DNA of 64,000 bases from Erpobdella octoculata (Eukaryota; Annelida; Clitellata; Hirudinida; Erpobdellidae). The position numbers were made by a program, and so were the translations under genes. The first letter of the stretch is position 1, and every line of letters begins with the position of its first letter. Where the stretch lies: the NCBI GenBank assembly GCA_963978895.1, contig OZ022239.1, positions 51,160,213-51,224,212 on the forward strand, in the 5' to 3' direction. The notes beneath the pieces were generated by a model. The model was given only the letters and a program-made list of their open reading frames with translations. It was not told the origin of the DNA and did no database searches. Shown piece by piece: positions 199 to 61,200 of the stretch.

Positions 199-540
199 AA
201 CTCGATGCGCTGATCACGAAAATCAAGTCAGTATTGCTCTACGACCCACCGTTTAGGCGCTAGAACGAAAAAAAGAGTCGATGATTTGAGTGATCACAGA
301 ATAAGGTCCTTTTTGCTCTAGGACGAACCGTTTAGCCGCTAGAGCGATTTTAAGTTTTAGATAAAAATTAAATTTTTTTTTACTTGTATTCTTATAGAAC
401 TCGATGCGCTGATCACGAAAATCAAGTCAGTATTGCTCTACGACCCACCGTTTAGGCGCTAGAACGAAAAAAAGAGTCGATGATTTGAGTGATCACAGAA
501 TAAGGTCCTTTTTGCTCTAGGACGAACCGTTTAGCCGCTA

Positions 541-607
541 GAGCGATTTTAAGTTTTAGATAAAAATTAAAAAAAATTAAAATTATTTTGAACTTGTATT
601 CTTATAG
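541..607 (+). repeat. Example of the long A/T linker class
   Basis: Two main linker types separate the GC-rich elements. The short type reads TTAAATTTTTTTTACTTG, with small homopolymer changes, and gives monomers of about 198-200 bp. The long type contains ATTAAAATTATTTTGAACTTG and gives about 210 bp. This example, with a rare run of eight A's before the ATTAAAATT segment, is a private marker that reappears at about 52290-52330. The two types alternate in recurring orders, which makes them useful for tracing block duplications. Minor forms (TTAAAAATTTTTTTAC, TTAAAAAATTTTTTAC) are concentrated between about 24 and 36 kb and in their mirror in block B. Confidence 0.8.
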
Positions 608-8344: not shown

Positions 8345-8935
8345 ATAGAACTCAATGCGCTGATCACGAAAATCAAGTCAGGTTTGCTCTACGACTCACC
8401 GTTTAGGCGCAAAAACGAAAAAAAGAGTCGATGATTTGAGTGATCACAGAATAAGGTCCTTTTTGCTCTAGGACGAACCGTTTAGCCGCTAGAGCGATTT
8501 TAAGTTTTAGATAAAAATTAATTTTTTTTTTACTTGTATTCTTATAGAACTCGATGCGCTGATCACGAAAATCAAGTCAGTATTGCTCTACGACCCACCG
8601 TTTAGGCGCTAGAACGAAAAAAAGAGTCGATGATTTGAGTGATCACAGAATAAGGTCCTTTTTGCTCTAGGACGAACCGTTTAGCCGCTAGAGCGATTTT
8701 AAGTTTTAGATAAAAATTTAAAAAAATTAAAATTATTTTGAACTTGTATTCTTATAGAACTCAATGCGCTGATCACGAAAATCAAGTCAGGTTTGCTCTA
8801 CGACTCACCGTTTAGGCGCAAAAACGAAAAAAAGAGTCGATGATTTGAGTGATCACAGAATAAGGTCCTTTTTGCTCTAGGACGAACCGTTTAGCCGCTA
8901 GAGCGATTTTAAGTTTTAGATAAAAATTAAATTTT
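8345..8935 (+). repeat. 409-bp two-monomer tandem duplication
   Basis: A divergent monomer carrying CTCAATGCGC, CAGGTTTGCTC and GCGCAAAAACG appears twice in succession here, with CAATGC at 8353 and 8762 (409 bp apart) and one ordinary monomer between. In the otherwise collinear block C only one copy is present (CAATGC at 60086), so the offset between A and C changes from 51733 to 51324 at this point. This is a simple two-monomer gain in A or loss in C; direction cannot be told from the window. Confidence 0.85.
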
Positions 8936-37219: not shown

Positions 37220-38450
37220 TTTTTACTTGTATTCTTATAGAACTCGATGCGCTGATCACGAAAATCAAATCAGTATTGCTCTACGACCCACCGTTTAGGC
37301 GCTAGAACGAGAAAAAGAGTCGATGATTTGCGTGATCACAGAATAAGGTCCTTTTTGCTCTAGGACGAACCGTTTAGCCGCTAGAGCGATTTTAAGTTTT
37401 AGATAAAAATTAAATTTTTTTTACTTGTATTTTTATAGAACTCGATGCGCTGATCACGAAAATCAAGTCAGTATTGCTCTACGACCCACCGTTTAGGCGC
37501 TAGAACGAAAAAAAGAGTCGATGATTTGAGTGATCACAGAATAAGGTCCTTTTTGCTCTAGGACGAACCGTTTAGCCGCTAAAGCGATTTTAAGTTTTAG
37601 ATAAAAATTTAAAAAAATTAAAATTATTTTGAACTTGTATTCTTATAGAACTCGATGCGCTGATCACGAAAATCAAGTCAGTATTGCTCTTCGACCCACC
37701 GTTTAGGCGCTAGAACGAAAAAAAGAGTCGATGATTTGAGTGATCACAGAATAAGGTCCTTTTTGCTCTAGGACGAACCGTTTAGCCGCTAGAGCGATTT
37801 TAAGTTTTAGATAAAAATTAAATTTTTTTTACTTGTATTCTTATAGAACTCGATGCGCTGATCACGAAAATCAAGTCAGTATTGCTCTACGACCCACCGT
37901 TTAGGCGCTAGAACGAAAAAAAAGAGTCGATGATTTGAGTGATCACAGAATAAGGTCCTTTTTGCTCTAGGACGAACCGTTTAGCCGCTAGAGCGATTTT
38001 AAGTTTTAGATAAAAATTAAATTTTTTTTACTTGTATTCTTATAGAACTCGATGCGCTGATCACGAAAATCAAGTCAGTATTGCTCTACGACCCACCGTT
38101 TAGGCGCTAGAACGGAAAAAAGAGTCGATGATTTGAGTGATCACAGAATAAGGTCCTTTTTGCTCTAGGACGAACCGTTTAGCCGCTAGAGCGATTTTAA
38201 GTTTTAGATAAAAATTAAATTTTTTTTTACTTGTATTCTTATAGAACTCGATGCGCTGATAACGAAAATCAAATCAGTATTGCTCTACGACCCACCGTTT
38301 AGGCGCTAGAACGAGAAAAAGAGTCGATGATTTGCGTGATCACAGAATAAGGTCCTTTTTGCTCTAGGACGAACCGTTTAGCCGCTAGAGCGATTTTAAG
38401 TTTTAGATAAAAATTAAATTTTTTTTACTTGTATTTTTATAGAACTCGAT
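37220..38450 (+). repeat. 1,004-bp higher-order repeat at the telomere-proximal end
   Basis: A monomer with AATCAAATCAG, TTTGCGTGATC and TGTATTTTTATAG occurs twice, with the TGTATTTTTATAG marker at 37426 and 38430 (1,004 bp, five monomers). The distal copy adds a private GATAACG near 38258, and the last monomer carries TTTGGCCGC near 38576 instead of TTTAGCCGC. All are seen again in reverse orientation just after the telomeric tract, which shows that both arms derive from one ancestral end. Confidence 0.85.
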
Positions 38451-38597
38451 GCGCTGATCACGAAAATCAAGTCAGTATTGCTCTACGACCCACCGTTTAG
38501 GCGCTAGAACGAGAAAAAGAGTCGATGATTTGAGTGATCACAGAATAAGGTCCTTTTTGCTCTAGGACGAACCGTTTGGCCGCTAGAGCGATTTTAA

Positions 38598-38660
38598 GGG
38601 TTAGGGTTAGGGTTAGGGTTAGGGTTAGGGTTAGGGTTAGGGTTAGGGTTAGGGTTAGGG

Positions 38661-38701
<41 letters not shown>

Positions 38702-38721
38702 GGTTAGGGTTAGGGTTAGGG
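38598..38721 (+). repeat. Telomeric repeat tract, (TTAGGG)n, left half
   Basis: The satellite stops in its A/T linker after GATTTTAAG and passes into GGG followed by thirteen TTAGGG units (38601-38678), one TTTAGGG variant (38679-38685) and six more TTAGGG units (38686-38721). The G-rich strand reads 5' to 3' rightward, the orientation expected of a chromosome end lying to the right. At 124 bp it is short compared with typical functional telomeres. The tract should be able to form G-quadruplexes and bind telomere proteins (known for TTAGGG arrays), though it sits internally here. Confidence 0.97.
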
Positions 38722-38732
38722 TTTTTTCGTTC
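38722..38732. other. Junction spacer between opposed telomere tracts
   Basis: Eleven bases, TTTTTTCGTTC, separate the last TTAGGG from the first CCCTAA-type repeat. Together with the following TA, they match 13 consecutive bases (TTTTTTCGTTCTA) of the reverse-oriented satellite, just before its GCGCC. The filler is therefore most simply a fragment of satellite, with the TAG of the telomere repeat possibly acting as microhomology to the TAG of CTAGAACG (inference). It also shares the short string TTCGTTC with a commonly used nanopore adapter as I remember it, a weaker match, so a library chimera cannot be dismissed. Confidence 0.75.
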
Positions 38733-38797
38733 TAACCCTAACCCTAACCCTAACCCTAACCCTAACCCTAACCCTAACCCTAACCCTAACCCTAACC

Positions 38798-38838
<41 letters not shown>

Positions 38839-38895
38839 CCCTAACCCTAACCCTAACCCTAACCCTAACCCTAACCCTAACCCTAACCCTAACCC
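38733..38895 (-). repeat. Telomeric repeat tract, (CCCTAA)n, right half
   Basis: After a partial TAA, thirteen CCCTAA units (38736-38813) are followed by one CCCTAAA variant (38814-38820), twelve CCCTAA units (38821-38892) and CCC, then TTAAAATCGC of the reversed satellite. Read from the satellite outward it is GGG, twelve repeats, one TTTAGGG, then thirteen more. The left tract has thirteen, one variant, then six. The shared single variant shows common descent of the inner parts; the outer lengths differ. The C-rich strand on + places a chromosome end to the left, so the two tracts face each other. Confidence 0.97.
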
Positions 38896-41149
38896 TTAAA
38901 ATCGCTCTAGCGGCCAAACGGTTCGTCCTAGAGCAAAAAGGACCTTATTCTGTGATCACTCAAATCATCGACTCTTTTTCTCGTTCTAGCGCCTAAACGG
39001 TGGGTCGTAGAGCAATACTGACTTGATTTTCGTGATCAGCGCATCGAGTTCTATAAAAATACAAGTAAAAAAAATTTAATTTTTATCTAAAACTTAAAAT
39101 CGCTCTAGCGGCTAAACGGTTCGTCCTAGAGCAAAAAGGACCTTATTCTGTGATCACGCAAATCATCGACTCTTTTTCTCGTTCTAGCGCCTAAACGGTG
39201 GGTCGTAGAGCAATACTGATTTGATTTTCGTTATCAGCGCATCGAGTTCTATAAGAATACAAGTAAAAAAAAATTTAATTTTTATCTAAAACTTAAAATC
39301 GCTCTAGCGGCTAAACGGTTCGTCCTAGAGCAAAAAGGACCTTATTCTGTGATCACTCAAATCATCGACTCTTTTTTCCGTTCTAGCGCCTAAACGGTGG
39401 GTCGTAGAGCAATACTGACTTGATTTTCGTGATCAGCGCATCGAGTTCTATAAGAATACAAGTAAAAAAAATTTAATTTTTATCTAAAACTTAAAATCGC
39501 TCTAGCGGCTAAACGGTTCGTCCTAGAGCAAAAAGGACCTTATTCTGTGATCACTCAAATCATCGACTCTTTTTTTTCGTTCTAGCGCCTAAACGGTGGG
39601 TCGTAGAGCAATACTGACTTGATTTTCGTGATCAGCGCATCGAGTTCTATAAGAATACAAGTAAAAAAAATTTAATTTTTATCTAAAACTTAAAATCGCT
39701 CTAGCGGCTAAACGGTTCGTCCTAGAGCAAAAAGGACCTTATTCTGTGATCACTCAAATCATCGACTCTTTTTTTCGTTCTAGCGCCTAAACGGTGGGTC
39801 GAAGAGCAATACTGACTTGATTTTCGTGATCAGCGCATCGAGTTCTATAAGAATACAAGTTCAAAATAATTTTAATTTTTTTAAATTTTTATCTAAAACT
39901 TAAAATCGCTTTAGCGGCTAAACGGTTCGTCCTAGAGCAAAAAGGACCTTATTCTGTGATCACTCAAATCATCGACTCTTTTTTTCGTTCTAGCGCCTAA
40001 ACGGTGGGTCGTAGAGCAATACTGACTTGATTTTCGTGATCAGCGCATCGAGTTCTATAAAAATACAAGTAAAAAAAATTTAATTTTTATCTAAAACTTA
40101 AAATCGCTCTAGCGGCTAAACGGTTCGTCCTAGAGCAAAAAGGACCTTATTCTGTGATCACGCAAATCATCGACTCTTTTTCTCGTTCTAGCGCCTAAAC
40201 GGTGGGTCGTAGAGCAATACTGATTTGATTTTCGTGATCAGCGCATCGAGTTCTATAAGAATACAAGTAAAAAAAATTTAATTTTTATCTAAAACTTAAA
40301 ATCGCTCTAGCGGCTAAACGGTTCGTCCTAGAGCAAAAAGGACCTTATTCTGTGATCACTCAAATCATCGACTCTTTTTTTCGTTCTAGCGCCTAAACGG
40401 TGGGTCGTAGAGCAATACTGACTTGATTTTCGTGATCAGCGCATCGAGTTCTATAAGAATACAAGTTCAAAATAATTTTAATTTTTTTAAATTTTTATCT
40501 AAAACTTAAAATCGCTCTAGCGGCTAAACGGTTCGTCCTAGAGCAAAAAGGACCTTATTCTGTTATCACTCAAGTCATCGACTCTTTTTTTCGTTCTAGC
40601 GCCTAAACGGTGGGTCGTAGAGCAATACTGACTTGATTTTCGTGATCAGCGCATCGAGTTCTATAAGAATACAAGTTCAAAATAATTTTAATTTTTTTAA
40701 ATTTTTATCTAAAACTTAAAATCGCTCTAGCGGCTAAACGGTTCGTCCTAGAGCAAAAAGTACCTTATTCTGTGATCACTCAAATCATCGACTCTTTTTT
40801 TCGTTCTAGCGCCTAAACGGTGGGTCGTAGAGCAATACTGACTTGATTTTCGTGATCAGCGCATCGAGTTCTATAAGAATACAAGTAAAAAAAAATTTAA
40901 TTTTTATCTAAAACTTAAAATCGCTCTAGCGGCTAAACGGTTCGTCCTAGAGCAAAAAGGACCTTATTCTGTGATCACTCAAATCATCGACTCTTTTTTC
41001 CGTTCTAGCGCCTAAACGGTGGGTCGTAGAGCAATACTGACTTGATTTTCGTGATCAGCGCATCGAGTTCTATAAGAATACAAGTAAAAATTTTTTTAAT
41101 TTTTATCTAAAACTTAAAATCGCTCTAGCGGCTAAACGGTTCGTCCTAG

Positions 41150-44100
41150 AGCAAAAAAGACCTTATTCTGTGATCACTCAAGTCATCGACTCTTTTTTTC
41201 GTTCTAGCGCCTAAACGGTGGGTCGAAGAGCAATACTGACTTGATTTTCGTGATCAGCGCATCGAGTTCTATAAGAATACAAGTTCAAAATAATTTTAAT
41301 TTTTTTAAATTTTTATCTAAAATTTAAAATCGCTTTAGCGGCTAAACGGTTTGTCCTAGAGCAAAAAGGACCTTATTCTGTGATCACTCAAATCATCGAC
41401 TCTTTTTTCCGTTCTAGCGCCTAAACGGTGGGTCGTAGAGCAATACTGACTTGATTTTCGTGATCAGCGCATCGAGTTCTATAAGAATACAAGTAAAAAA
41501 TTTTTAATTTTTATCTAAAACTTAAAATCGCTCTAGCGGCTAAACGGTTCGTCCTAGAGCAAAACGGACCTTATTCTGTGATCACTCAAATCATCGACTC
41601 TTTTTTTCGTTCTAGCGCCTAAACGGTGGGTCGTAGAGAAATACTGACTTGATTTTCGTGATCGGCGCATCGAGTTCTATAAGAATACAAGTAAAAAAAA
41701 ATTTAATTTTTATCTAAAACTTAAAATCGCTCTAGCGGCTAAACGGTTCGTCCTAGAGCAAAAAGGACCTTATTCTGTGATCACTCAAATCATCGACTCT
41801 TTTCTTCGTTCTAGCGCCTAAACGGTGGGTCGTAGAGCAATACTGACTTGATTTTCGTGATCAGCGCATCGAGTTCTATAAGAATACAAGTAAAAAAAAA
41901 TTTAATTTTTATCTAAAACTTAAAATCGCTCTAGCGGCTAAACGGTTCGTCCTAGAGCAAAAAGGACCTTATTCTGTGATCACTCAAATCATCGACTCTT
42001 TTTTCCGTTCTAGCGCCTAAACGGTGGGTCGTAGAGCAATACTGGCTTGATTTTCGTGATCAGCGCATCGAGTTCTATAAGAATACAAGTAAAAAAAAAA
42101 TTAATTTTTATCTAAAACTTAAAATCGCTCTAGCGGCTAAACGGTTCGTCCTAGAGCAAAAAGGACCTTATTCTGTGATCACTCAAATCATCGACTCTTT
42201 TTTCCGTTCTAGCGCCTAAACGGTGGGTCGTAGAGAAATACTGACTTGATTTTCGTGATCGGCGCATCGAGTTCTATAAGAATACAAGTAAAAAAAAATT
42301 TAATTTTTATCTAAAACTTAAAATCGCTCTAGCGGCTAAACGGTTCGTCCTAGAGCAAAAAGGACCTTATTCTGTGATCACTCAAATCATCGACTCTTTT
42401 TTTCGTTCTAGCGCCTAAACGGTGGGTCGTAGAGCAATACTGACTTGATTTTCGTGATCAGCGCATCGAGTTCTATAAGAATACAAGTTCAAAATAATTT
42501 TAATTTTTTTAAATTTTTATCTAAAACTTAAAATCGCTCTAGCGGCTAAACGGTTCGTCCTAGAGCAAAAAGGACCTTATTCTGTTATCACTCAAGTCAT
42601 CGACTCTTTTTTTCGTTCTAGCGCCTAAACGGTGGGTCGTAGAGCAATACTGACTTGATTTTCGTGATCAGCGCATCGAGTTCTATAAGAATACAAGTTC
42701 AAAATAATTTTAATTTTTTTAAATTTTTATCTAAAACTTAAAATCGCTCTAGCGGCTAAACGGTTCGTCCTAGAGCAAAAAGTACCTTATTCTGTGATCA
42801 CTCAAATCATCGACTCTTTTTTTCGTTCTAGCGCCTAAACGGTGGGTCGTAGAGCAATACTGACTTGATTTTCGTGATCAGCGCATCGAGTTCTATAAGA
42901 ATACAAGTAAAAAAAAATTTAATTTTTATCTAAAACTTAAAATCGCTCTAGCGGCTAAACGGTTCGTCCTAGAGCAAAAAGGACCTTATTCTGTGATCAC
43001 TCAAATCATCGACTCTTTTTTTCGTTCTAGCGCCTAAACGGTGGGTCGTAGAGCAATACTGACTTGATTTTCGTGATCAGCGCATCGAGTTCTATAAGAA
43101 TACAAGTAAAAAAAATTTTAATTTTTATCTAAAACTTAAAATCGCTCTAGCGGCTAAACGGTTCGTCCTAGAGCAAAAAGGACCTTATTCTGTGATCACT
43201 CAAATCATCGACTCTTTTTTCGTTCTAGCGCCTAAACGGTGGGTCGTAGAGCAATACTGACTTGATTTTCGTGATCAGCGCATCGAGTTCTATAAGAATA
43301 CAAGTAAAAAAAAATTTAATTTTTATCTAAAACTTAAAATCGCTCTAGCGGCTAAACGGTTCGTCCTAGAGCAAAAAGGACCTTATTCTGTGATCACTCA
43401 AATCATCGACTCTTTTTTTCGTTCTAGCGCCTAAACGGTGGGTCGTAGAGCAATACTGGCTTGATTTTCGTGATCAGCGCATCGAGTTCTATAAGAATAC
43501 AAGTAAAAAAAAAATTAATTTTTATCTAAAACTTAAAATCGCTCTAGCGGCTAAACGGTTCGTCCTAGAGCAAAAAGGACCTTATTCTGTGATCACTCAA
43601 ATCATCGACTCTTTTTTTCGTTCTAGCGCCTAAACGGTGGGTCGTAGAGCAATACTGACTTGATTTTCGTGATCAGCGCATCGAGTTCTATAAGAATACA
43701 AGTAAAAAATTTTTAATTTTTATCTAAAACTTAAAATCGCTCTAGCGGCTAAACGGTTCGTCCTAGAGCAAAAAGGACCTTATTCTGTGATCACTCAAAT
43801 CATCGACTCTTTCTTTCGTTCTAGCGCCTAAACGGTGGGTCGTAGAGCAATACTGACTTGATTTTCGTGATCAGCGCATCGAGTTCTATAAGAATACAAG
43901 TAAAAAAAAATTAATTTTTATCTAAAACTTAAAATCGCTCTAGCGGCTAAACGGTTCGTCCTAGAGCAAAAAGGACCTTATTCTGTGATCACTCAAATCA
44001 TCGACTCTTTTTTTCGTTCTAGCGCCTAAACGGTGGGTCGTAGAGCAATACTGACTTGATTTTCGTGATCAGCGCATCGAGTTCTATAAGAATACAAGTA

Positions 44101-47100
44101 AAAAAAAAATTAATTTTTATCTAAAACTTAAAATCGCTCTAGCGGCTAAACGGTTCGTCCTAGAGCAAAAAGGACCTTATTCTGTGATCACTCAAATCAT
44201 CGACTCTTTTTTTCGTTCTAGCGCCTAAACGGTGGGTCGTAGAGCAATACTGACTTGATTTTCGTGATCAGCGCATCGAGTTCTATAAGAATACAAGTAA
44301 AAAAATTTTTAATTTTTATCTAAAACTTAAAATCGCTCTAGCGGCTAAACGGTTCGTCCTAGAGCAAAACGGACCTTATTCTGTGATCACTCAAATCATC
44401 GACTCTTTTTTTCGTTCTAGCGCCTAAACGGTGGGTCGTAGAGAAATACTGACTTGATTTTCGTGATCGGCGCATCGAGTTCTATAAGAATACAAGTAAA
44501 AAAAAATTTAATTTTTATCTAAAACTTAAAATCGCTCTAGCGGCTAAACGGTTCGTCCTAGAGCAAAAAGGACCTTATTCTGTGATCACTCAAATCATCG
44601 ACTCTTTTTTTCGTTCTAGCGCCTAAACGGTGGGTCGTAGAGCAATACTGACTTGATTTTCGTGATCAGCGCATCGAGTTCTATAAGAATACAAGTAAAA
44701 AATTTTTTAATTTTTATCTAAAACTTAAAATCGCTCTAGCGGCTAAACGGTTCGTCCTAGAGCAAAACGGACCTTATTCTGTGATCACTCAAATCATCGA
44801 CTCTTTTTTTCGTTCTAGCGCCTAAACGGTGGGTCGTAGAGAAATACTGACTTGATTTTCGTGATCGGCGCATCGAGTTCTATAAGAATACAAGTAAAAA
44901 AAAATTTAATTTTTATCTAAAACTTAAAATCGCTCTAGCGGCTAAACGGTTCGTCCTAGAGCAAAAAGGACCTTATTCTGTGATCACTCAAATCATCGAC
45001 TCTTTTCTTCGTTCTAGCGCCTAAACGGTGGGTCGTAGAGCAATACTGACTTGATTTTCGTGATCAGCGCATCGAGTTCTATAAGAATACAAGTAAAAAA
45101 AAATTTAATTTTTATCTAAAACTTAAAATCGCTCTAGCGGCTAAACGGTTCGTCCTAGAGCAAAAAGGACCATATTCTGTGATCACTCAAATCATCGACT
45201 CTTTTTTCCGTTCTAGCGCCTAAACGGTGGGTCGTAGAGCAATACTGACTTGATTTTCGTGATCAGCGCATCGAGTTCTATAAGAATACAAGTAAAAAAA
45301 ATTTAATTTTTATCTAAAACTTAAAATCGCTCTAGCGGCTAAACGGTTCGTCCTAGAGCAAAAAGGACCTTATTCTGTGATCACTCAAATCATCGACTCT
45401 TTCTTCCGTTCTAGCGCCTAAACGGTGGGTCGTAGAGCAATACTGACTTGATTTTCGTGATCAGCGCATCGAGTTCTATAAGAATACAAGTAAAAAAATT
45501 TTTAATTTTTATCTAAAACTTAAAATCGCTCTAGCGGCTAAACGGTTCGTCCTAGAGCAAAAAGGACCTTATTCTGTGATCACTCAAATCATCGACTCTT
45601 TTTTTCGTTCTAGCGCCTAAACGGTGGGTCGTAGAGCAATACTGACTTGATTTTCGTGATCAGCGCATCGAGTTCTATAAGAATACAAGTAAAAAATTTT
45701 TTAATTTTTATCTAAAACTTAAAATCGCTCTAGCGGCTAAACAGTTCGTCCTAGAGCAAAAAAGACCTTATTCTGTGATCACTCAAGTCATCGACTCTTT
45801 TTTTCGTTCTAGCGCCTAAACGGTGGGTCGAAGAGCAATACTGACTTGATTTTCGTGATCAGCGCATCGAGTTCTATAAGAATACAAGTTCAAAATAATT
45901 TTAATTTTTTTAATTTTTTATCTAAAACTTAAAATCGCTCTAGCGGCTAAACGGTTCGTCCTTGAGCAAAAAGGACCTTATTCTGTGATCACTCAAATCA
46001 TCGACTCTTTTTTTCGTTCTAGCGCCTAAACGGTGGGTCGTAGAGCAATACTGGCTTGATTTTCGTGATCAGCGCATCGAGTTCTATAAGAATACAAGTA
46101 AAAAAAAAATTAATTTTTATCTAAAACTTAAAATCGCTCTAGCGGCTAAACGGTTCGTCCTAGAGCAAAAAAGACCTTATTCTGTGATCACTCAAGTCAT
46201 CGACTCTTTTTTTCGTTCTAGCGCCTAAACGGTGGGTCGAAGAGCAATACTGACTTGATTTTCGTGATCAGCGCATCGAGTTCTATAAGAATACAAGTTC
46301 AAAATAATTTTAATTTTTTTAAATTTTTATCTAAAATTTAAAATCGCTTTAGCGGCTAAACGGTTTGTCCTAGAGCAAAAAGGACCTTATTCTGTGATCA
46401 CTCAAATCATCGACTCTTTTTTCCGTTCTAGCGCCTAAACGGTGGGTCGTAGAGCAATACTGACTTGATTTTCGTGATCAGCGCATCGAGTTCTATAAGA
46501 ATACAAGTAAAAAATTTTTAATTTTTATCTAAAACTTAAAATCGCTCTAGCGGCTAAACGGTTCGTCCTAGAGCAAAACGGACCTTATTCTGTGATCACT
46601 CAAATCATCGACTCTTTTTTTCGTTCTAGCGCCTAAACGGTGGGTCGTAGAGAAATACTGACTTGATTTTCGTGATCGGCGCATCGAGTTCTATAAGAAT
46701 ACAAGTAAAAAAAAATTTAATTTTTATCTAAAACTTAAAATCGCTCTAGCGGCTAAACGGTTCGTCCTAGAGCAAAAAGGACCTTATTCTGTGATCACTC
46801 AAATCATCGACTCTTTTCTTCGTTCTAGCGCCTAAACGGTGGGTCGTAGAGCAATACTGACTTGATTTTCGTGATCAGCGCATCGAGTTCTATAAGAATA
46901 CAAGTAAAAAAAAATTTAATTTTTATCTAAAACTTAAAATCGCTCTAGCGGCTAAACGGTTCGTCCTAGAGCAAAAAGGACCTTATTCTGTGATCACTCA
47001 AATCATCGACTCTTTTTTTCGTTCTAGCGCCTAAACGGTGGGTCGTAGAGCAATACTGGCTTGATTTTCGTGATCAGCGCATCGAGTTCTATAAGAATAC

Positions 47101-50100
47101 AAGTAAAAAAAAAATTAATTTTTATCTAAAACTTAAAATCGCTCTAGCGGCTAAACGGTTCGTCCTAGAGCAAAAAGGACCTTATTCTGTGATCACTCAA
47201 ATCATCGACTCTTTTTTCCGTTCTAGCGCCTAAACGGTGGGTCGTAGAGAAATACTGACTTGATTTTCGTGATCGGCGCATCGAGTTCTATAAGAATACA
47301 AGTAAAAAAAAATTTAATTTTTATCTAAAACTTAAAATCGCTCTAGCGGCTAAACGGTTCGTCCTAGAGCAAAAAGGACCTTATTCTGTGATCACTCAAA
47401 TCATCGACTCTTTTTTTCGTTCTAGCGCCTAAACGGTGGGTCGTAGAGCAATACTGACTTGATTTTCGTGATCAGCGCATCGAGTTCTATAAGAATACAA
47501 GTTCAAAATAATTTTAATTTTTTTAAATTTTTATCTAAAACTTAAAATCGCTCTAGCGGCTAAACGGTTCGTCCTAGAGCAAAAAGGACCTTATTCTGTT
47601 ATCACTCAAGTCATCGACTCTTTTTTTCGTTCTAGCGCCTAAACGGTGGGTCGTAGAGCAATACTGACTTGATTTTCGTGATCAGCGCATCGAGTTCTAT
47701 AAGAATACAAGTTCAAAATAATTTTAATTTTTTTAAATTTTTATCTAAAACTTAAAATCGCTCTAGCGGCTAAACGGTTCGTCCTAGAGCAAAAAGTACC
47801 TTATTCTGTGATCACTCAAATCATCGACTCTTTTTTTCGTTCTAGCGCCTAAACGGTGGGTCGTAGAGCAATACTGACTTGATTTTCGTGATCAGCGCAT
47901 CGAGTTCTATAAGAATACAAGTAAAAAAAAATTTAATTTTTATCTAAAACTTAAAATCGCTCTAGCGGCTAAACGGTTCGTCCTAGAGCAAAAAGGACCT
48001 TATTCTGTGATCACTCAAATCATCGACTCTTTTTTTCGTTCTAGCGCCTAAACGGTGGGTCGTAGAGCAATACTGACTTGATTTTCGTGATCAGCGCATC
48101 GAGTTCTATAAGAATACAAGTAAAAAAAATTTTAATTTTTATCTAAAACTTAAAATCGCTCTAGCGGCTAAACGGTTCGTCCTAGAGCAAAAAGGACCTT
48201 ATTCTGTGATCACTCAAATCATCGACTCTTTTTTCGTTCTAGCGCCTAAACGGTGGGTCGTAGAGCAATACTGACTTGATTTTCGTGATCAGCGCATCGA
48301 GTTCTATAAGAATACAAGTAAAAAAAAATTTAATTTTTATCTAAAACTTAAAATCGCTCTAGCGGCTAAACGGTTCGTCCTAGAGCAAAAAGGACCTTAT
48401 TCTGTGATCACTCAAATCATCGACTCTTTTTTTCGTTCTAGCGCCTAAACGGTGGGTCGTAGAGCAATACTGGCTTGATTTTCGTGATCAGCGCATCGAG
48501 TTCTATAAGAATACAAGTAAAAAAAAAATTAATTTTTATCTAAAACTTAAAATCGCTCTAGCGGCTAAACGGTTCGTCCTAGAGCAAAAAGGACCTTATT
48601 CTGTGATCACTCAAATCATCGACTCTTTTTTTCGTTCTAGCGCCTAAACGGTGGGTCGTAGAGCAATACTGACTTGATTTTCGTGATCAGCGCATCGAGT
48701 TCTATAAGAATACAAGTAAAAAATTTTTAATTTTTATCTAAAACTTAAAATCGCTCTAGCGGCTAAACGGTTCGTCCTAGAGCAAAAAGGACCTTATTCT
48801 GTGATCACTCAAATCATCGACTCTTTCTTTCGTTCTAGCGCCTAAACGGTGGGTCGTAGAGCAATACTGACTTGATTTTCGTGATCAGCGCATCGAGTTC
48901 TATAAGAATACAAGTAAAAAAAAATTAATTTTTATCTAAAACTTAAAATCGCTCTAGCGGCTAAACGGTTCGTCCTAGAGCAAAAAGGACCTTATTCTGT
49001 GATCACTCAAATCATCGACTCTTTTTTTCGTTCTAGCGCCTAAACGGTGGGTCGTAGAGCAATACTGACTTGATTTTCGTGATCAGCGCATCGAGTTCTA
49101 TAAGAATACAAGTAAAAAAAAAATTAATTTTTATCTAAAACTTAAAATCGCTCTAGCGGCTAAACGGTTCGTCCTAGAGCAAAAAGGACCTTATTCTGTG
49201 ATCACTCAAATCATCGACTCTTTTTTTCGTTCTAGCGCCTAAACGGTGGGTCGTAGAGCAATACTGACTTGATTTTCGTGATCAGCGCATCGAGTTCTAT
49301 AAGAATACAAGTAAAAAAATTTTTAATTTTTATCTAAAACTTAAAATCGCTCTAGCGGCTAAACGGTTCGTCCTAGAGCAAAACGGACCTTATTCTGTGA
49401 TCACTCAAATCATCGACTCTTTTTTTCGTTCTAGCGCCTAAACGGTGGGTCGTAGAGAAATACTGACTTGATTTTCGTGATCGGCGCATCGAGTTCTATA
49501 AGAATACAAGTAAAAAAAAATTTAATTTTTATCTAAAACTTAAAATCGCTCTAGCGGCTAAACGGTTCGTCCTAGAGCAAAAAGGACCTTATTCTGTGAT
49601 CACTCAAATCATCGACTCTTTTTTTCGTTCTAGCGCCTAAACGGTGGGTCGTAGAGCAATACTGACTTGATTTTCGTGATCAGCGCATCGAGTTCTATAA
49701 GAATACAAGTAAAAAATTTTTTAATTTTTATCTAAAACTTAAAATCGCTCTAGCGGCTAAACGGTTCGTCCTAGAGCAAAACGGACCTTATTCTGTGATC
49801 ACTCAAATCATCGACTCTTTTTTTCGTTCTAGCGCCTAAACGGTGGGTCGTAGAGAAATACTGACTTGATTTTCGTGATCGGCGCATCGAGTTCTATAAG
49901 AATACAAGTAAAAAAAAATTTAATTTTTATCTAAAACTTAAAATCGCTCTAGCGGCTAAACGGTTCGTCCTAGAGCAAAAAGGACCTTATTCTGTGATCA
50001 CTCAAATCATCGACTCTTTTCTTCGTTCTAGCGCCTAAACGGTGGGTCGTAGAGCAATACTGACTTGATTTTCGTGATCAGCGCATCGAGTTCTATAAGA

Positions 50101-51185
50101 ATACAAGTAAAAAAAAATTTAATTTTTATCTAAAACTTAAAATCGCTCTAGCGGCTAAACGGTTCGTCCTAGAGCAAAAAGGACCATATTCTGTGATCAC
50201 TCAAATCATCGACTCTTTTTTCCGTTCTAGCGCCTAAACGGTGGGTCGTAGAGCAATACTGACTTGATTTTCGTGATCAGCGCATCGAGTTCTATAAGAA
50301 TACAAGTAAAAAAAATTTAATTTTTATCTAAAACTTAAAATCGCTCTAGCGGCTAAACGGTTCGTCCTAGAGCAAAAAGGACCTTATTCTGTGATCACTC
50401 AAATCATCGACTCTTTTTTCCGTTCTAGCGCCTAAACGGTGGGTCGTAGAGCAATACTGACTTGATTTTCGTGATCAGCGCATCGAGTTCTATAAGAATA
50501 CAAGTAAAAAAATTTTTAATTTTTATCTAAAACTTAAAATCGCTCTAGCGGCTAAACGGTTCGTCCTAGAGCAAAAAGGACCTTATTCTGTGATCACTCA
50601 AATCATCGACTCTTTTTTTCGTTCTAGCGCCTAAACGGTGGGTCGTAGAGCAATACTGACTTGATTTTCGTGATCAGCGCATCGAGTTCTATAAGAATAC
50701 AAGTAAAAAATTTTTTAATTTTTATCTAAAACTTAAAATCGCTCTAGCGGCTAAACAGTTCGTCCTAGAGCAAAAAAGACCTTATTCTGTGATCACTCAA
50801 GTCATCGACTCTTTTTTTCGTTCTAGCGCCTAAACGGTGGGTCGAAGAGCAATACTGACTTGATTTTCGTGATCAGCGCATCGAGTTCTATAAGAATACA
50901 AGTTCAAAATAATTTTAATTTTTTTAATTTTTTATCTAAAACTTAAAATCGCTCTAGCGGCTAAACGGTTCGTCCTTGAGCAAAAAGGACCTTATTCTGT
51001 GATCACTCAAATCATCGACTCTTTTTTTCGTTCTAGCGCCTAAACGGTGGGTCGTAGAGCAATACTGGCTTGATTTTCGTGATCAGCGCATCGAGTTCTA
51101 TAAGAATACAAGTAAAAAAAAAATTAATTTTTATCTAAAACTTAAAATCGCTCTAGCGGCTAAACGGTTCGTCCTAGAGCAAAAA
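41150..51185 (-). repeat. 5,014-bp tandem duplication in block B
   Basis: Copy 1 (about 41150-46150) and copy 2 (about 46150-51160) are aligned at a constant offset of 5,014 bp, about 25 monomers. Markers include CTAAAATTTAAAATCG (41317 and 46331), ACAGTT (45741 and 50755) and CTGGCTTG (about 46052 and 51066). The crossover lies in a stretch identical in both contexts, about 46116-46171. Two substitutions separate the copies: 42005 C against 47019 T, and 45403 C against 50417 T. At both, copy 2 agrees with the mirrored left arm and copy 1 is the odd one. The left arm has a single copy of this segment. Confidence 0.88.
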
Positions 51186-51189
51186 GGAC

Positions 51190-52179
51190 CTTATTCTGTG
51201 ATCACTCAAATCATCGACTCTTTTCTTCGTTCTAGCGCCTAAACGGTGGGTCGTAGAGCAATACTGACTTGATTTTCGTGATCAGCGCATCGAGTTCTAT
51301 AAGAATACAAGTTCAAAATAATTTTAATTTTTTTAAATTTTTATCTAAAACTTAAAATCGCTCTAGCGGCTAAACGGTTCGTCCTAGAGCAAAAAGGACC
51401 TTATTCTGTGATCACTCAAATCATCGACTCTTTTTTTCGTAGAGCAATACTGACTTGATTTTCGTGATCAGCGCATCGAGTTCTATAAGAATACAAGTAA
51501 AAAAATTTTTAATTTTTATCTAAAACTTAAAATCGCTCTAGCGGCTAAACGGTTCGTCCTAGAGCAAAAAGGACCTTATTCTGTGATCACTCAAATCATC
51601 GACTCTTTTTCTCGTTCTAGCGCCTAAACGGTGGGTCGTAGAGCAATACTGACTTGATTTTCGTGATCAGCGCATCGAGTTCTATAAGAATACAAGTAAA
51701 AAATTTTTTAATTTTTATCTAAAACTTAAAATCGCTCTAGCGGCTAAACAGTTCGTCCTAGAGCAAAAAAGACCTTATTCTGTGATCACTCAAGTCATCG
51801 ACTCTTTTTTTCGTTCTAGCGCCTAAACGGTGGGTCGAAGAGCAATACTGACTTGATTTTCGTGATCAGCGCATCGAGTTCTATAAGAATACAAGTTCAA
51901 AATAATTTTAATTTTTTTAATTTTTTATCTAAAACTTAAAATCGCTCTAGCGGCTAAACGGTTCGTCCTTGAGCAAAAAGGACCTTATTCTGTGATCACT
52001 CAAATCATCGACTCTTTTTTTCGTTCTAGCGCCTAAACGGTGGGTCGTAGAGCAATACTGACTTGATTTTCGTGATCAGCGCATCGAGTTCTATAAGAAT
52101 ACAAGTAAAAATTTTTTTAATTTTTATCTAAAACTTAAAATCGCTCTAGCGGCTAAACGGTTCGTCCTAGAGCAAAAAA
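51190..52179 (-). repeat. Rearranged satellite mosaic at the end of block B
   Basis: Read in reverse, the order of variants here is GGTCTTTTTTG with the TTAAAAAAATTTTTAC linker, then GCTCAAGG, then CTCTTCGACC with CGAACTG, then CGAGAAAAAG, a monomer with an internal deletion, and CGAAGAAAAG. This resembles A at about 28.5-29.6 kb, but two monomers found there (about 28600-28990) are skipped and the private TCATTATTG at 29041 is absent. It is collinear with neither the mirror nor the 5,014-bp duplication, so at least one further rearrangement has taken place. Confidence 0.65.
51425..51470 (-). repeat. Monomer with 24-bp internal deletion
   Basis: At about 51440 the sequence passes from CTTTTTTTCG directly to TAGAGC, losing 24 bases that include most of the first GC-rich element (the CTAGCGCC...GGTGGG part). 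TCG lies at both edges of the missing segment in intact monomers, so this looks like a microhomology or slippage deletion. I saw no other monomer in the window with this loss, which makes it a unique marker. Confidence 0.85.
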
Positions 52180-52240
52180 GACCTTATTCTGTGATCACTC
52201 AGAAAAGAGTCGATGATTTGAGTGATCACAGAATAAGGTC
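52180..52240. repeat. Fold-back inversion junction between blocks B and C
   Basis: Reverse satellite ends at 52200 and forward satellite begins within a few bases. The arms 52180-52200 and 52220-52240 are perfect 21-bp reverse complements beginning GACCTTATTC, separated by a 19-nt spacer (52201-52219), with the centre at 52210. After one mismatch (52179/52241) pairing continues as generic satellite, because both sides are in the same monomer register. The two sides carry different variant sets, so it is not a long mirror like the one at 38.7 kb. It is either a fold-back inversion in the array or an assembly join between oppositely oriented satellite reads. Confidence 0.85.
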
Positions 52241-55200
52241 CTTTTTGCTCTAGGACGAACCGTTTAGCCGCTAGAGCGATTTTAAGTTTTAGATAAAAAT
52301 TAAAAAAAATTAAAATTATTTTGAACTTGTATTCTTATAGAACTCGATGCGCTGATCACGAAAATCAAGTCAGTATTGCTCTACGACCCACCGTTTAGGC
52401 GCTAGAACGAAAAAAAGAGTCGATGATTTGAGTGATCACAGAATAAGGTCCTTTTTGCTCTAGGACGAACCGTTTAGCCGCTAGAGCGATTTTAAGTTTT
52501 AGATAAAAATTAAATTTTTTTTTACTTGTATTCTTATAAAACTCGATGCGTTGATCACGAAAATCAAGTCAGTATTGCTCTACGACCCACCGTTTAGGCG
52601 CTAGAACGAAAAAAAGAGTCGATGATTTGAGTGATCACAGAATAAGGTCTATTTTGCTCTAGGACGAACCGTTTAGCCGCTAGAGCGATTTTAAGTTTTA
52701 GATAAAAATTAATTTTTTTTTACTTGTATTCTTATAGAACTCGATGCGCTGATCACGAAAATCAAGTCAGTATTGCTCTACGACCCACCGTTTAGGCGCT
52801 AGAACGGAAAAAAGAGTCGATGATTTGAGTGATCACAAAATAATGTCCTTTTTGCTCTAGGACGAACCGTTTAGCCGCTAGAGCGATTTTAAGTTTTAGA
52901 TAAAAATTTAAAAAAATTAAAATTATTTTGAACTTGTATTCTTATAGAACTCGATGCCCTGATCACGAAAATCAAGTCAGTATTGCTCTACGACCCACCG
53001 TTTAGGCGCTAGAACGAAAAAAAGAGTCGATGATTTGAGTGATCACAGAATAAGGTCCTTTTTGCTCTAGGACGAACCGTTTAGCCGCTAGAGCGATTTT
53101 AAGTTTTAGATAAAAATTTAAAAAAATTAAAATTATTTTGAACTTGTATTCTTATAGAACTCGATGCGCTGATCACGAAAATCAAGTCAGTATTGCTTTA
53201 CGACCCACCGTTTAGGCGCTAGAACGAGAAAAAGAGTCGATGATTTGAGTGATCACAGAATAAGGTCCTTTTTGCTCTAGGACGAACCGTTTAGCCGCTA
53301 GAGCGATTTTAAGTTTTAGATAAAAATTAATTTTTTTTTTACTTGTATTCTTATAGAACTCGATGCGCTGATCACGAAAATCAAGTCAGTATTGCTCTAC
53401 GACCCACCGTTTAGGCGCTAGAACGAAAAAAAGAGTCGATGATTTGAGTGATCACAGAATAAGGTCCTTTTTGCTCTAGGACGAACCGTTTAGCCGCTAG
53501 AGCGATTTTAAGTTTTAGATAAAAATTTAAAAAAATTAAAATTATTTTGAACTTGTATTCTTATAGAACTCGATGCGCTGATCACGAAAATCAAGTCAGT
53601 ATTGCTCTACGACCCACCGTTTAGGCGCTAGAACGAAAAAAAGAGTCGATGATTTGAGTGATCACAGAATAAGGTCCTTTTTGCTCTAGGACGAACCGTT
53701 TAGCCGCTAGAGCGATTTTAAGTTTTAGATAAAAATTAAATTTTTTTTTACTTGTATTCTTATAAAACTCGATGCGCTGATCACGAAAATCATGTCAGTA
53801 TTGCTCTACGACCCACCGTTTAGGCGCTAGAACGAAAAAAAGAGTCGATGATTTGAGTGATCACAGAATAAGGTCTATTTTGCTCTAGGACGAACCGTTT
53901 AGCCGCTAGAGCGATTTTAAGTTTTAGATAAAAATTAATTTTTTTTTACTTGTATTCTTATAGAACTCGATGCGCTGATCACGAAAATCAAGTCAGTATT
54001 GCTCTACGACCCACCGTTTAGGCGCTAGAACGGAAAAAAGAGTCGATGATTTGAGTGATCACAAAATAAGGTCCTTTTTGCTCTAGGACGAACCGTTTAG
54101 CCGCTAGAGCGATTTTAAGTTTTAGATAAAAATTTAAAAAAATTAAAATTATTTTGAACTTGTATTCTTATAGAACTCGATGCCTTGATCACGAAAATCA
54201 AGTCAGTATTGCTCTACGACCCACCGTTTAGGCGCTAGAACGTAAAAAAGAGTCGATGATTTGAGTGATCACAGAATAAGGTCCTTTTTGCTCTAGGACG
54301 AACCGTTTAGCCGCTAGAGCGATTTTAAGTTTTAGATAAAAATTTAAAAAAATTAAAATTATTTTGAACTTGTATTCTTATAGAACTCGATGCGCTGATC
54401 ACGAAAATCAAGTCAGTATTGCTTTACGACCCACCGTTTAGGCGCTAGAACGAGAAAAAGAGTCGATGATTTGAGTGATCACAGAATAAGGTCCTTTTTG
54501 CTCTAGGACGAACCGTTTAGCCGCTAGAGCGATTTTAAGTTTTAGATAAAAATTAATTTTTTTTTTACTTGTATTCTTATAGAACTCGATGCGCTGATCA
54601 CGAAAATCAAGTCAGTATTGCTCTACGACCCACCGTTTAGGCGCTAGAACGAAAAAAAGAGTCGATGATTTGAGTGATCACAGAATAAGGTCCTTTTTGC
54701 TCTAGGACGAACCGTTTAGCCGCTAGAGCGATTTTAAGTTTTAGATAAAAATTTAAAAAAATTAAAATTATTTTGAACTTGTATTCTTATAGAACTCAAT
54801 GCGCTGATCACGAAAATCAAGTCAGGTTTGCTCTACGACTCACCGTTTAGGCGCAAAAACGAAAAAAAGAGTCGATGATTTGAGTGATCACAGAATAAGG
54901 TCCTTTTTGCTCTAGGACAAACCGTTTAGCCGCTAGAGCGATTTTAAGTTTTAGATAAAAATTAAATTTTTTTTACTTGTATTCTTATAGAACTCGATGC
55001 GCTGATCACGAAAATCAAGTCAGTATTGCTCTACGACCCACCGTTTAGGCGCTAGAACGGAAAAAAGAGTCGATGATTTGAGTGATCACAGAATAAGGTC
55101 CTTTTTGCTCTAGGACGAACCGTTTAGCCGCTAGAGCGATTTTAAGTTTTAGATAAAAATTAAATTTTTTTTTACTTTTATTCTTATAGAACTCGATGCG

Positions 55201-58200
55201 CTGATCACGAAAATCAAGTCAGTATTGCTCTACGACTCACCGTTTAGGCGCTAGAACGAAAAAAAGAGTCGATGACTTGAGTGATCACAGAATAAGGTCC
55301 TTTTTGCTCTAGGACGAACCGTTTAGCCGCTAGAGCGATTTTAAGTTTTAGATAAAAATTTAAAAAAATTAAAATTATTTTGAACTTGTATTCTTATAGA
55401 ACTCGATGCGCTGATCACGAAAATCAAGTCAGTATTGCTCTACGACCCACCGTTTAGGCGCTAGAACGAAAAAAAGAGTCGATGATTTGAGTGATCACAG
55501 AATAAGGTCCTTTTTGCTCTAGGACGAACCGTTTAGCCGCTAGAGCGATTTTAAGTTTTAGATAAAAATTAAATTTTTTTTACTTGTATTCTTATAGAAC
55601 TCGATGCGCTGATCACGAAAATCAAGTCAGTATTGCTCTACGACCCACCGTTTAGGCGCTAGAACGAAAAAAAGAGTCGATGATTTGAGTGATCACAGAA
55701 TAAGGTCCTTTTTGCTCTAGGACGAACCGTTTAGCCGCTAGAGCGATTTTAAGTTTTAGATAAAAATTAAATTTTTTTTTACTTGTATTCTTATAGAACT
55801 CGATGCGCTGATCACGAAAATCAAGTCAGTATTGCTCTACGACCCACCGTTTAGGCGCTAGAACGAAAAAAAGAGTCGATGATTTGAGTGATCACAGAAT
55901 AAGGTCCTTTTTGCTCTAGGACGAACCGTTTAGCCGCTAGAGCGATTTTAAGTTTTAGATAAAAATTAAAATTTTTTTTACTTGTATTCTTATAGAACTC
56001 GATGCGCTGATCACGAAAATCAAGTCAGTATCGCTCTACGACCCACCGTTTAGGCGCTAGAACGAAAAAAAGAGTCGATGATTTGAGTGATCACAGAATA
56101 AGGTACTTTTTGCTCTAGGACGAACCGTTTAGCCGCTAGAGCGATTTTAAGTTTTAGATAAAAATTTAAAAAAATTAAAATTATTTTGAACTTGTATTCT
56201 TATAGAACTCGATGCGCTGATCACGAAAATCAAGTCAGTATTGCTCTACGACCCACCGTTTAGGCGCTAGAACGAAAAAAAGAGTCGATGATTTGAGTGA
56301 TCACAGAATAAGGTCCTTTTTGCTCTAGGACGAACCGTTTAGCCGCTAGAGCGATTTTAAGTTTTAGATAAAAATTAAATTTTTTTTACTTGTATTCTTA
56401 TAGAACTCGATGCGCTGATCACGAAAATCAAGTCAGTATTGCTCTACGACCCACCGTTTAGGCGCTAGAACGAAAAAAAGAGTCGATGATTTGAGTGATC
56501 ACAGAATAAGGTCCTTTTTGCTCTAGGACGAACCGTTTAGCCGATAGAGCGATTTTAAGTTTTAGATAAAAATTAAATTTTTTTTTACTTGTATTCTTAT
56601 AGAACTCGATGCGCTGATCACGAAAATCAAGTCAGTATTGCTCTACGACCCACCGTTTAGGCGCTAGAACGAAAAAAAGAGTCGATGATTTGAGTGATCA
56701 CAGAATAAGGTCCTTTTTGCTCTAGGACGAACCGTTTAGCCGCTAGGGCGATTTTAAGTTTTAGATAAAAATTAAATTTTTTTTACTTGTATTCTTATAG
56801 AACTCGATGCGCTGATCACGAAAATCAAGTCAGTATTGCTCTACGACCCACCGTTTAGGCGCTAGAACGGAAAAAAGAGTCGATGATTTGAGTGATCACA
56901 GAATAAGGTCCTTTTTGCTCTAGGACGAACCGTTTAGCCGCTAGAGCGATTTTAAGTTTTAGATAAAAATTTAAAAAAATTAAAATTATTTTGAACTTGT
57001 ATTCTTATAGAACTCGATGCGCTGATCACGAAAATCAAGTCAGTATTGCTCTACGACCCACCGTTTAGGCGCTAGAACGAAAAAAAGAGTCGATGATTTG
57101 AGTGATCACAGAATAAGGTCCTTTTTGCTCTAGGACGAACCGTTTAGCCGCTAGAGCGATTTTAAGTTTTAGATAAAAATTAAATTTTTTTTTACTTGTA
57201 TTCTTATAAAACTCGATGCGCTGATCACGAAAATCAAGTCAGTATTGCTCTACGACCCACCGTTTAGGCGCTAGAACGAAAAAAAGAGTCGATGATTTGA
57301 GTGATCACAGAATAAGGTCTATTTTGCTCTAGGACGAACCGTTTAGCCGCTAGAGCGATTTTAAGTTTTAGATAAAAATTAATTTTTTTTTACTTGTATT
57401 CTTATAGAACTCGATGCGCTGATCACGAAAATCAAGTCAGTATTGCTCTACGACCCACCGTTTAGGCGCTAGAACGGAAAAAAGAGTCGATGATTTGAGT
57501 GATCACAAAATAATGTCCTTTTTGCTCTAGGACGAACCGTTTAGCCGCTAGAGCGATTTTAAGTTTTAGATAAAAATTTAAAAAAATTAAAATTATTTTG
57601 AACTTGTATTCTTATAGAACTCGATGCCCTGATCACGAAAATCAAGTCAGTATTGCTCTACGACCCACCGTTTAGGCGCTAGAACGAAAAAAAGAGTCGA
57701 TGATTTGAGTGATCACAGAATAAGGTCCTTTTTGCTCTAGGACGAACCGTTTAGCCGCTAGAGCGATTTTAAGTTTTAGATAAAAATTTAAAAAAATTAA
57801 AATTATTTTGAACTTGTATTCTTATAGAACTCGATGCGCTGATCACGAAAATCAAGTCAGTATTGCTTTACGACCCACCGTTTAGGCGCTAGAACGAGAA
57901 AAAGAGTCGATGATTTGAGTGATCACAGAATAAGGTCCTTTTTGCTCTAGGACGAACCGTTTAGCCGCTAGAGCGATTTTAAGTTTTAGATAAAAATTAA
58001 TTTTTTTTTTACTTGTATTCTTATAGAACTCGATGCGCTGATCACGAAAATCAAGTCAGTATTGCTCTACGACCCACCGTTTAGGCGCTAGAACGAAAAA
58101 AAGAGTCGATGATTTGAGTGATCACAGAATAAGGTCCTTTTTGCTCTAGGACGAACCGTTTAGCCGCTAGAGCGATTTTAAGTTTTAGATAAAAATTTAA

Positions 58201-61200
58201 AAAAATTAAAATTATTTTGAACTTGTATTCTTATAGAACTCGATGCGCTGATCACGAAAATCAAGTCAGTATTGCTTTACGACCCACCGTTTAGGCGCTA
58301 GAACGAGAAAAAGAGTCGATGATTTGAGTGATCACAGAATAAGGTCCTTTTTGCTCTAGGACGAACCGTTTAGCCGCTAGAGCGATTTTAAGTTTTAGAT
58401 AAAAATTAATTTTTTTTTTACTTGTATTCTTATAGAACTCGATGCGCTGATCACGAAAATCAAGTCAGTATTGCTCTACGACCCACCGTTTAGGCGCTAG
58501 AACGAAAAAAAGAGTCGATGATTTGAGTGATCACAGAATAAGGTCCTTTTTGCTCTAGGACGAACCGTTTAGCCGCTAGAGCGATTTTAAGTTTTAGATA
58601 AAAATTTAAAAAAATTAAAATTATTTTGAACTTGTATTCTTATAGAACTCAATGCGCTGATCACGAAAATCAAGTCAGGTTTGCTCTACGACTCACCGTT
58701 TAGGCGCAAAAACGAAAAAAAGAGTCGATGATTTGAGTGATCACAGAATAAGGTCCTTTTTGCTCTAGGACGAACCGTTTAGCCGCTAGAGCGATTTTAA
58801 GTTTTAGATAAAAATTAAATTTTTTTTACTTGTATTCTTATAGAACTCGATGCGCTGATCACGAAAATCAAGTCAGTATTGCTCTACGACCCACCGTTTA
58901 GGCGCTAGAACGAAAAAAAGAGTCGATGATTTGAGTGATCACAGAATAAGGTCCTTTTTGCTCTAGGACGAACCGTTTAGCCGCTAGAGCGATTTTAAGT
59001 TTTAGATAAAAATTTAAAAAAATTAAAATTATTTTGAACTTGTATTCTTATAGAACTCGATGCCCTGATCACGAAAATCAAGTCAGTATTGCTCTACGAC
59101 CCACCGTTTAGGCGCTAGAACGAAAAAAAGAGTCGATGATTTGAGTGATCACAGAATAAGGTCCTTTTTGCTCTAGGACGAACCGTTTAGCCGCTAGAGC
59201 GATTTTAAGTTTTAGATAAAAATTTAAAAAAATTAAAATTATTTTGAACTTGTATTCTTATAGAACTCGATGCGCTGATCACGAAAATCAAGTCAGTATT
59301 GCTTTACGACCCACCGTTTAGGCGCTAGAACGAGAAAAAGAGTCGATGATTTGAGTGATCACAGAATAAGGTCCTTTTTGCTCTAGGACGAACCGTTTAG
59401 CCGCTAGAGCGATTTTAAGTTTTAGATAAAAATTAATTTTTTTTTTACTTGTATTCTTATAGAACTCGATGCGCTGATCACGAAAATCAAGTCAGTATTG
59501 CTCTACGACCCACCGTTTAGGCGCTAGAACGAAAAAAAGAGTCGATGATTTGAGTGATCACAGAATAAGGTCCTTTTTGCTCTAGGACGAACCGTTTAGC
59601 CGCTAGAGCGATTTTAAGTTTTAGATAAAAATTTAAAAAAATTAAAATTATTTTGAACTTGTATTCTTATAGAACTCGATGCGCTGATCACGAAAATCAA
59701 GTCAGTATTGCTTTACGACCCACCGTTTAGGCGCTAGAACGAGAAAAAGAGTCGATGATTTGAGTGATCACAGAATAAGGTCCTTTTTGCTCTAGGACGA
59801 ACCGTTTAGCCGCTAGAGCGATTTTAAGTTTTAGATAAAAATTAATTTTTTTTTTACTTGTATTCTTATAGAACTCGATGCGCTGATCACGAAAATCAAG
59901 TCAGTATTGCTCTACGACCCACCGTTTAGGCGCTAGAACGAAAAAAAGAGTCGATGATTTGAGTGATCACAGAATAAGGTCCTTTTTGCTCTAGGACGAA
60001 CCGTTTAGCCGCTAGAGCGATTTTAAGTTTTAGATAAAAATTTAAAAAAATTAAAATTATTTTGAACTTGTATTCTTATAGAACTCAATGCGCTGATCAC
60101 GAAAATCAAGTCAGGTTTGCTCTACGACTCACCGTTTAGGCGCAAAAACGAAAAAAAGAGTCGATGATTTGAGTGATCACAGAATAAGGTCCTTTTTGCT
60201 CTAGGACGAACCGTTTAGCCGCTAGAGCGATTTTAAGTTTTAGATAAAAATTAAATTTTTTTTACTTGTATTCTTATAGAACTCGATGCGCTGATCACGA
60301 AAATCAAGTCAGTATTGCTCTACGACCCACCGTTTAGGCGCTAGAACGAAAAAAAGAGTCGATGATTTGAGTGATCACAGAATAAGGTCCTTTTTGCTCT
60401 AGGACGAACCGTTTAGCCGCTAGAGCGATTTTAAGTTTTAGATAAAAATTAAATTTTTTTTTACTTGTATTCTTATAGAACTCGATGCGCTGATCACGAA
60501 AATCAAGTCAGTATTGCTCTACGACCCACCGTTTAGGCGCTAGAACGGAAAAAAGAGTCGATGATTTGAGTGATCACAGAATAAGGTCCTTTTTGCTCTA
60601 GGACGAACCGTTTAGCCGCTAGGGCGATTTTAAGTTTTAGATAAAAATTAAATTTTTTTTACTTGTATTCTTATAGAACTCGATGCGCTGATCACGAAAA
60701 TCAAGTCAGTATTGCTCTACGACCCACCGTTTAGGCGCTAGAACGAAAAAAAGAGTCGATGATTTGAGTGATCACAGAATAAGGTCCTTTTTGCTCTAGG
60801 ACGAACCGTTTAGCCGCTAGAGCGATTTTAAGTTTTAGATAAAAATTTAAAAAAATTAAAATTATTTTGAACTTGTATTCTTATAGAACTCGATGCGCTG
60901 ATCACGAAAATCAAGTCAGTATTGCTCTACGACCCACCGTTTAGGCGCTAGAACGAAAAAAAGAGTCGATGATTTGAGTGATCACAGAATAAGGTCCTTT
61001 TTGCTCTAGGACGAACCGTTTAGCCGCTAGAGCGATTTTAAGTTTTAGATAAAAATTAAATTTTTTTTTACTTGTATTCTTATAAAACTCGATGCGCTGA
61101 TCACGAAAATCAAGTCAGTATTGCTCTACGACCCACCGTTTAGGCGCTAGAACGAAAAAAAGAGTCGATGATTTGAGTGATCACAGAATAAGGTCTATTT

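Follow-up and report, generated by a model that had tools for sequence, protein, structure and literature searches.

A single inward-facing junction between two telomere repeat tracts lies near 38.7 kb in the 64-kb stretch of DNA analyzed here (the window). From its anatomy, we give slightly better than even confidence to reading it as a true telomere-telomere fusion that joins two copies of one chromosome end bearing satellite. The partners in such an event might have been sister chromatids, homologues, or two chromosomes sharing a subtelomere. If real, the junction preserves an end-to-end fusion at base-level detail, with the two partners, the insert left by repair, and the rearranged array all legible in a setting, satellite beside telomere, that is difficult to assemble. 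If not, it warns that an assembly may read straight through a telomere and onward into another copy of that end, yet appear sound, gapless, and equipped with a plausible repair scar. Coordinates of the relevant features are collected in Table 1.

Table 1. Features of the window in order of position; L denotes the array left of the joint and R the arm to its right.
Feature	Coordinates	Strand	Remarks
Satellite array L, ending at left telomere tract	1-38598	+	Tandem Repeats Finder
Telomere-bearing unit	38573-38600	+	Variant CGTTTGGCCGC (38573), breakpoint GATTTTAAGGG (38590); one mirror copy on right arm
TTAGGG tract	38597-38723	+	AGGGTT x21.0, 98% match (Tandem Repeats Finder); exact hexamer runs
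Joint	38722-38734	.	13 bp identical to - satellite
CCCTAA tract	38732-38896	-	CTAACC x27.3, 98% match (Tandem Repeats Finder); exact hexamer runs
First copy in arm R, mirroring L to ~7.28 kb from telomere	38894-46172	-	3 mismatches/7,278 ungapped bases
Second copy in arm R (L distance 2203-7318)	46110-51224	-	5,115/5,115 bases identical
Patchwork satellite before turn	51225-52203	-	Best whole-length identity 95.9%
Tail, direct copy of window 471-12676	52204-64000	+	2 mismatches, one 409-bp deletion

Telomere tracts and the insert between them

The two tracts face inward (5'-TTAGGG..CCCTAA-3') and adjoin almost directly, separated by a strict insert of 9 bp. Their location by Tandem Repeats Finder and by exact runs bears out an earlier note on this DNA, which had described TTAGGG followed by CCCTAA with the 3' ends of the G-rich strands converging; the tract lengths of 124-163 bp given there agree with the present measurement. 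Counted as exact runs, the left tract comprises 13 TTAGGG units, an extra T, and 7 further units, and the right tract 14 CCCTAA units, an extra A, and 12 further units, for 20 exact units on the left versus 26 on the right. Each tract contains a single TTTAGGG unit, placed after 13 exact units in the left tract and after 12 in the right. The earlier note saw tracts this short as consistent with eroded ends; a length of 120-165 bp could also represent the full length of a telomere. No TTAGGG or CCCTAA hexamers are found outside the junction tracts across the 64-kb window, a confinement that puts the arrangement far beyond chance, and the window consists of A, C, G, and T only, with no N letters and, therefore, no scaffold gap at the joint. 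An Rfam scan of positions 38000-39500 returned 19 rows, all of them miRNA families and every one below the gathering score. RNA genes at 38669-38787 were accordingly rejected, the sub-threshold miRNA matches all overlapping the inverted telomere repeats that cause them.

The strictly inserted bases between the tracts occupy positions 38724-38732; the earlier note is silent on them, as it is on the turn at 52.2 kb and on the copying of the window's start by the sequence beyond that turn. At the edges of the insert, TT and TA are common to the telomere tracts, giving a 2-bp overlap on each side and a joint sequence of 13 bp in total. This sequence matches the satellite exactly and recurs in 43 copies in right arm R. 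Among 200,000 shuffles of the joint letters, 118 also match satellite; a chance match is unlikely, though not overwhelmingly so for a sequence that is short and partly a T run. A short insert copied from nearby, accompanied by microhomology at the edges, is a footprint of polymerase-theta-type or template-switching repair. Both elements of templated end joining are present here, a short insert that matches nearby DNA and microhomology at either edge. A nanopore adapter presumably has a short word in common with the insert, but the exact 13-base satellite match provides a better account than leftover sequencing adapter. In the fusion reading, the two ends would have been joined via microhomology-mediated end joining or template switching, one 3' end having used satellite as a template for a short stretch of synthesis and then been linked to the opposite telomere. 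In human cells, microhomology and templated insertions are both described as more frequent at intra-chromosomal (sister-type) telomere fusions than at inter-chromosomal fusions (PMC4864465).

The putative chromosome end on the two arms

The window is almost wholly satellite, built from 199- and 210-bp units. The 312 units cut out of it have a mean identity of 97.5% (3,000 sampled pairs, substitutions only). In addition to array L, Tandem Repeats Finder delimits satellite blocks at 38895-51440 (- strand) and 52203-64000 (+ strand), and inspection by eye shows the - satellite running on to 52.2 kb. Sign flips in GC skew coincide, at 2-kb resolution, with the changes in satellite orientation. The claim that both flanks of the junction are the same satellite in opposite orientation thus stands, with the 199/210-bp array at 1-38598 and its inverted counterpart from 38895. 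High identity by itself proves little in an array so full of recent duplications. Thirty random 2-kb pieces of L find their best match elsewhere in L at 97.3-99.9%, and at least 99.85% in 4 of the 30; L also contains 55 direct-repeat pairs of at least 600 bp, 41 of them at least 621 bp, with a longest exact direct repeat of 1,680 bp.

Against this background, the two arms are linked by features of the end itself. Both tracts pass into satellite at the same breakpoint, GATTTTAAGGG, which falls at the same base on the two sides and has a single occurrence on each strand, confined to the joint; the usual form at this position, GATTTTAAGTT, is present in 244 and 64 copies on the two strands. The terminal-unit variant CGTTTGGCCGC is similarly found once per strand, only in the telomere-bearing units, whereas the normal form is present 241 and 63 times. 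We infer that the satellite-telomere breakpoint marks a chromosome end. From the telomere outward, the arms mirror each other with 3 mismatches in 7,278 ungapped bases. Two of these mismatches can be assigned as private to the first R copy, the second having the base of L at those positions; the third falls beyond the bounds of the duplication. One of the three is 1.43 kb from the telomere. The longest exact blocks shared between the arms measure 3,397 and 5,115 bp, compared with 1,680 bp within L. The arm pair stands out from the rest of the array in the length of its match, in beginning right at the telomere, and in having a terminal variant in common. The common breakpoint and variant, the nearly equal TTTAGGG placement, and the mirror identity mark the two arms as copies of a single, particular end. 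The earlier suggestion that sister or homologous ends had fused fits the mirror arms and the end-only variant on each strand; the joint more likely than not exists in cells.

Near-identical arms extending outward from a telomere are also what two haplotypes would yield, and a chimeric read (arising by ligation, amplification, or fold-back) may have linked two molecules of the same end, such as two haplotypes, without any fused chromosome. We consider such an artefact a real possibility, though short of probable. A 5,014-bp duplication and one telomere unit are differences that two haplotypes could show, and satellite blocks of high identity are not rare, given the 4 in 30 random pieces of L that reach the 99.85% threshold elsewhere. 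A telomere is, in addition, expected to form a dead end in an assembly graph, where a single chimeric read would extend unopposed. One survey put fold-backs at ~0.55-0.6% of genomic reads from ONT and cites an earlier study in which the share was 1-4% and in rare cases 20-30% (PMC12870357). The same survey describes PacBio HiFi data, from three PacBio samples only, as having virtually no fold-backs (PMC12870357). Further points against an artefact come from the joint and its surroundings. An insert that matches satellite and overlaps the tracts by 2 bp on each side is not expected of ligation, and it speaks mildly against a chimeric link of allelic ends. Homopolymers of at least 7 bases agree within the identical blocks (38 runs in 5,115 bp and 40 runs in 4,785 bp), indicating that the consensus is not noisy. 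A fold-back read from a single molecule at 38.7 kb predicts matching arms and was rejected in view of the 5,014-bp duplication and the differences in tract length and by one unit; a duplication on the kilobase scale in one arm alone is beyond what one folded molecule can produce.

Inward junctions have been proposed to form by two routes, ligation of two telomeres or fold-back of the G-rich 3' end (PMC10762111). The second of these routes enters into an explanation in which no two ends ever met: an internal break would have acquired telomere repeats, or the 3' end of a G-rich strand would have folded on itself, with replication then making the inverted arms. There is a partial precedent in horse interstitial telomeric sequence, where head-to-head stretches are attributed to telomere insertion and, as here, the flanks are duplicated in inverted orientation (PMC7215372). 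The horse flank inversions and duplications reported span only 286, 38, and 53 bp (PMC7215372), however, versus at least 7.3 kb in the window, and a hairpin in one molecule leaves the differences between the arms unexplained unless they are later in origin. We regard this insertion or hairpin origin as very improbable.

The right arm beyond the mirror region and the turn at 52.2 kb

Unequal exchange may account for a tandem duplication of 5,014 bp that sets the right arm apart from L. The arms also diverge from about 12.3 kb onward, and the right side then turns to + orientation. The earlier note had also entertained an isochromosome-like end; neither this, in its plain form, nor a perfect palindrome is supported, given the unequal tract lengths, the 5,014-bp duplication, and the divergence beyond about 12.3 kb. 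Within the patchwork that precedes the turn, positions 51437-52057 match L distance 8935-9556 exactly over 621 bp, a length that is ordinary for this array. A 24-bp deletion at 51440, which leaves a 186-bp unit, lies just before the orientation switch.

No telomere repeats are present at the return to + orientation at 52.2 kb. A comparison of its two sides yields no exact mirror match of at least 450 bp, and the best mirror comparison reaches 95.7%. The sequence beyond the turn is a direct copy of L and not a mirror of R; a simple fold-back at 52.2 kb was rejected on this finding, which also excludes that the same molecule folded back a second time. A strict ~51.7-kb tandem repeat carrying the junction was likewise rejected, positions 1-470 being in + orientation whereas 51.2-52.2 kb is in -. 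The match between the tail and positions 471-12676 shows a segmental duplication of ~12 kb within or between arrays. If the junction arose by fusion of two ends, then the array may have been rearranged afterward, or the partners may already have differed beforehand; a second inverted join at 52.2 kb would have attached the copy of the L array.

The same layout invites comparison with minichromosomes. The sequence from 38.73 kb rightward might constitute a minichromosome-like linear unit (a telomere, - satellite, the 52.2-kb turn, + satellite, and a second telomere outside the window) that was fused or assembled onto another copy. The order and orientation of the blocks from 38.73 to 64 kb fit such a unit, and the tail copies L in the direction of L's telomere, so that the next telomere is predicted near 89.9 kb. 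Trypanosoma brucei minichromosomes offer a model, being described as linear molecules that end in TTAGGG and have a palindromic core of 177-bp repeats containing one inversion (PMC3866873). The window resembles them in its satellite core, its inversion point, and its TTAGGG repeats, with repeat units of 199/210 bp here compared with the 177 bp reported there. It departs from them in that the two halves about 52.2 kb are not mirror copies, as the comparison across the turn shows, and in that a telomere is seen at one end only, the sole telomere inside the window being that at 38.73 kb and the other predicted to lie past its end. This explanation is, in our view, decidedly unlikely. The palindromic minichromosome suggested in the earlier note loses its palindrome to the mirror test at the turn; an asymmetric variant still fits the order and orientation of the blocks.

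A broader version of the fusion reading is also conceivable. End-derived units, each consisting of telomere, satellite, inversion, satellite, and telomere, may have been fused tip to tip, kept, and duplicated, so that fused telomeres would recur as a standard structural element of a chromosome rich in satellite or of small linear chromosomes composed of it. We consider this extension unlikely. If true, it predicts more telomeres or joints outside the window, the next near 90 kb; within the window, there is the one junction.

Known inward junctions and the composition of the satellite

By its anatomy, the junction is likely a member of the inward telomere fusions, and the closest points of comparison are in human sequence. 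At the chromosome-2 fusion site (2q13/2q14.1), inward TTAGGG/CCCTAA repeats lie, as here, in subtelomeric duplicated DNA (PMC12926204). The flanks at that site are described as different segmental duplications, whereas those in the window are copies of one satellite end, and the human site is reported as structurally fixed in 94 haplotypes (PMC12926204). The present tracts are, in addition, nearly perfect (98%) and enclose an insert that matches satellite, unlike the human chromosome-2 site. Inward fusions in tumours and sister-chromatid fusions share the inward orientation and a short sequence at the breakpoint, with microhomology described as common (PMC10762111, PMC4864465). These fusions are somatic and were detected in reads or amplicons (PMC10762111, PMC4864465); the junction described here is in assembled sequence and has multi-kilobase arms that differ from each other.

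Searches with the satellite itself gave no relative in the collections covered. Satellite words of two patterns had 0 matches each among viral contigs, a 22-mer had 0 matches among genome contigs, and a 20-mer had 1 match among genome contigs, with ~0.5 expected by chance. The single match, in a bacterial metagenome-assembled genome, was set aside, having only 20-21 bp in common and no surrounding satellite. A plasmid search with one 501-bp query gave no match, and six satellite words were absent from the paper texts searched. The two papers that surfaced for 199-bp satellites with TTAGGG concern vertebrates, judging by title and abstract.

The satellite unit appears, by eye, to consist of two related halves of ~100 bp, with two similar motifs centred on CCGTTTAG. 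The 210-bp form is zoned within L. When the first 28 kb are divided into 4-kb bins, it accounts for 6 to 9 of the 19 or 20 spacings per bin, compared with 5 of the 40 spacings that start between 28 and 36 kb. The CpG observed/expected ratio is 1.75 across the window, unusual for satellite in a methylated genome, and transitions at CpG are not in excess (30 in 7,482 unit positions versus 125 in 15,592 other C/G positions). These figures disfavour a vertebrate source and would fit animals, fungi, or protists that have TTAGGG telomeres and little methylation. CpG enrichment of this kind, together with the lack of a transition excess, suggests that heavy CpG methylation of the genome is unlikely.
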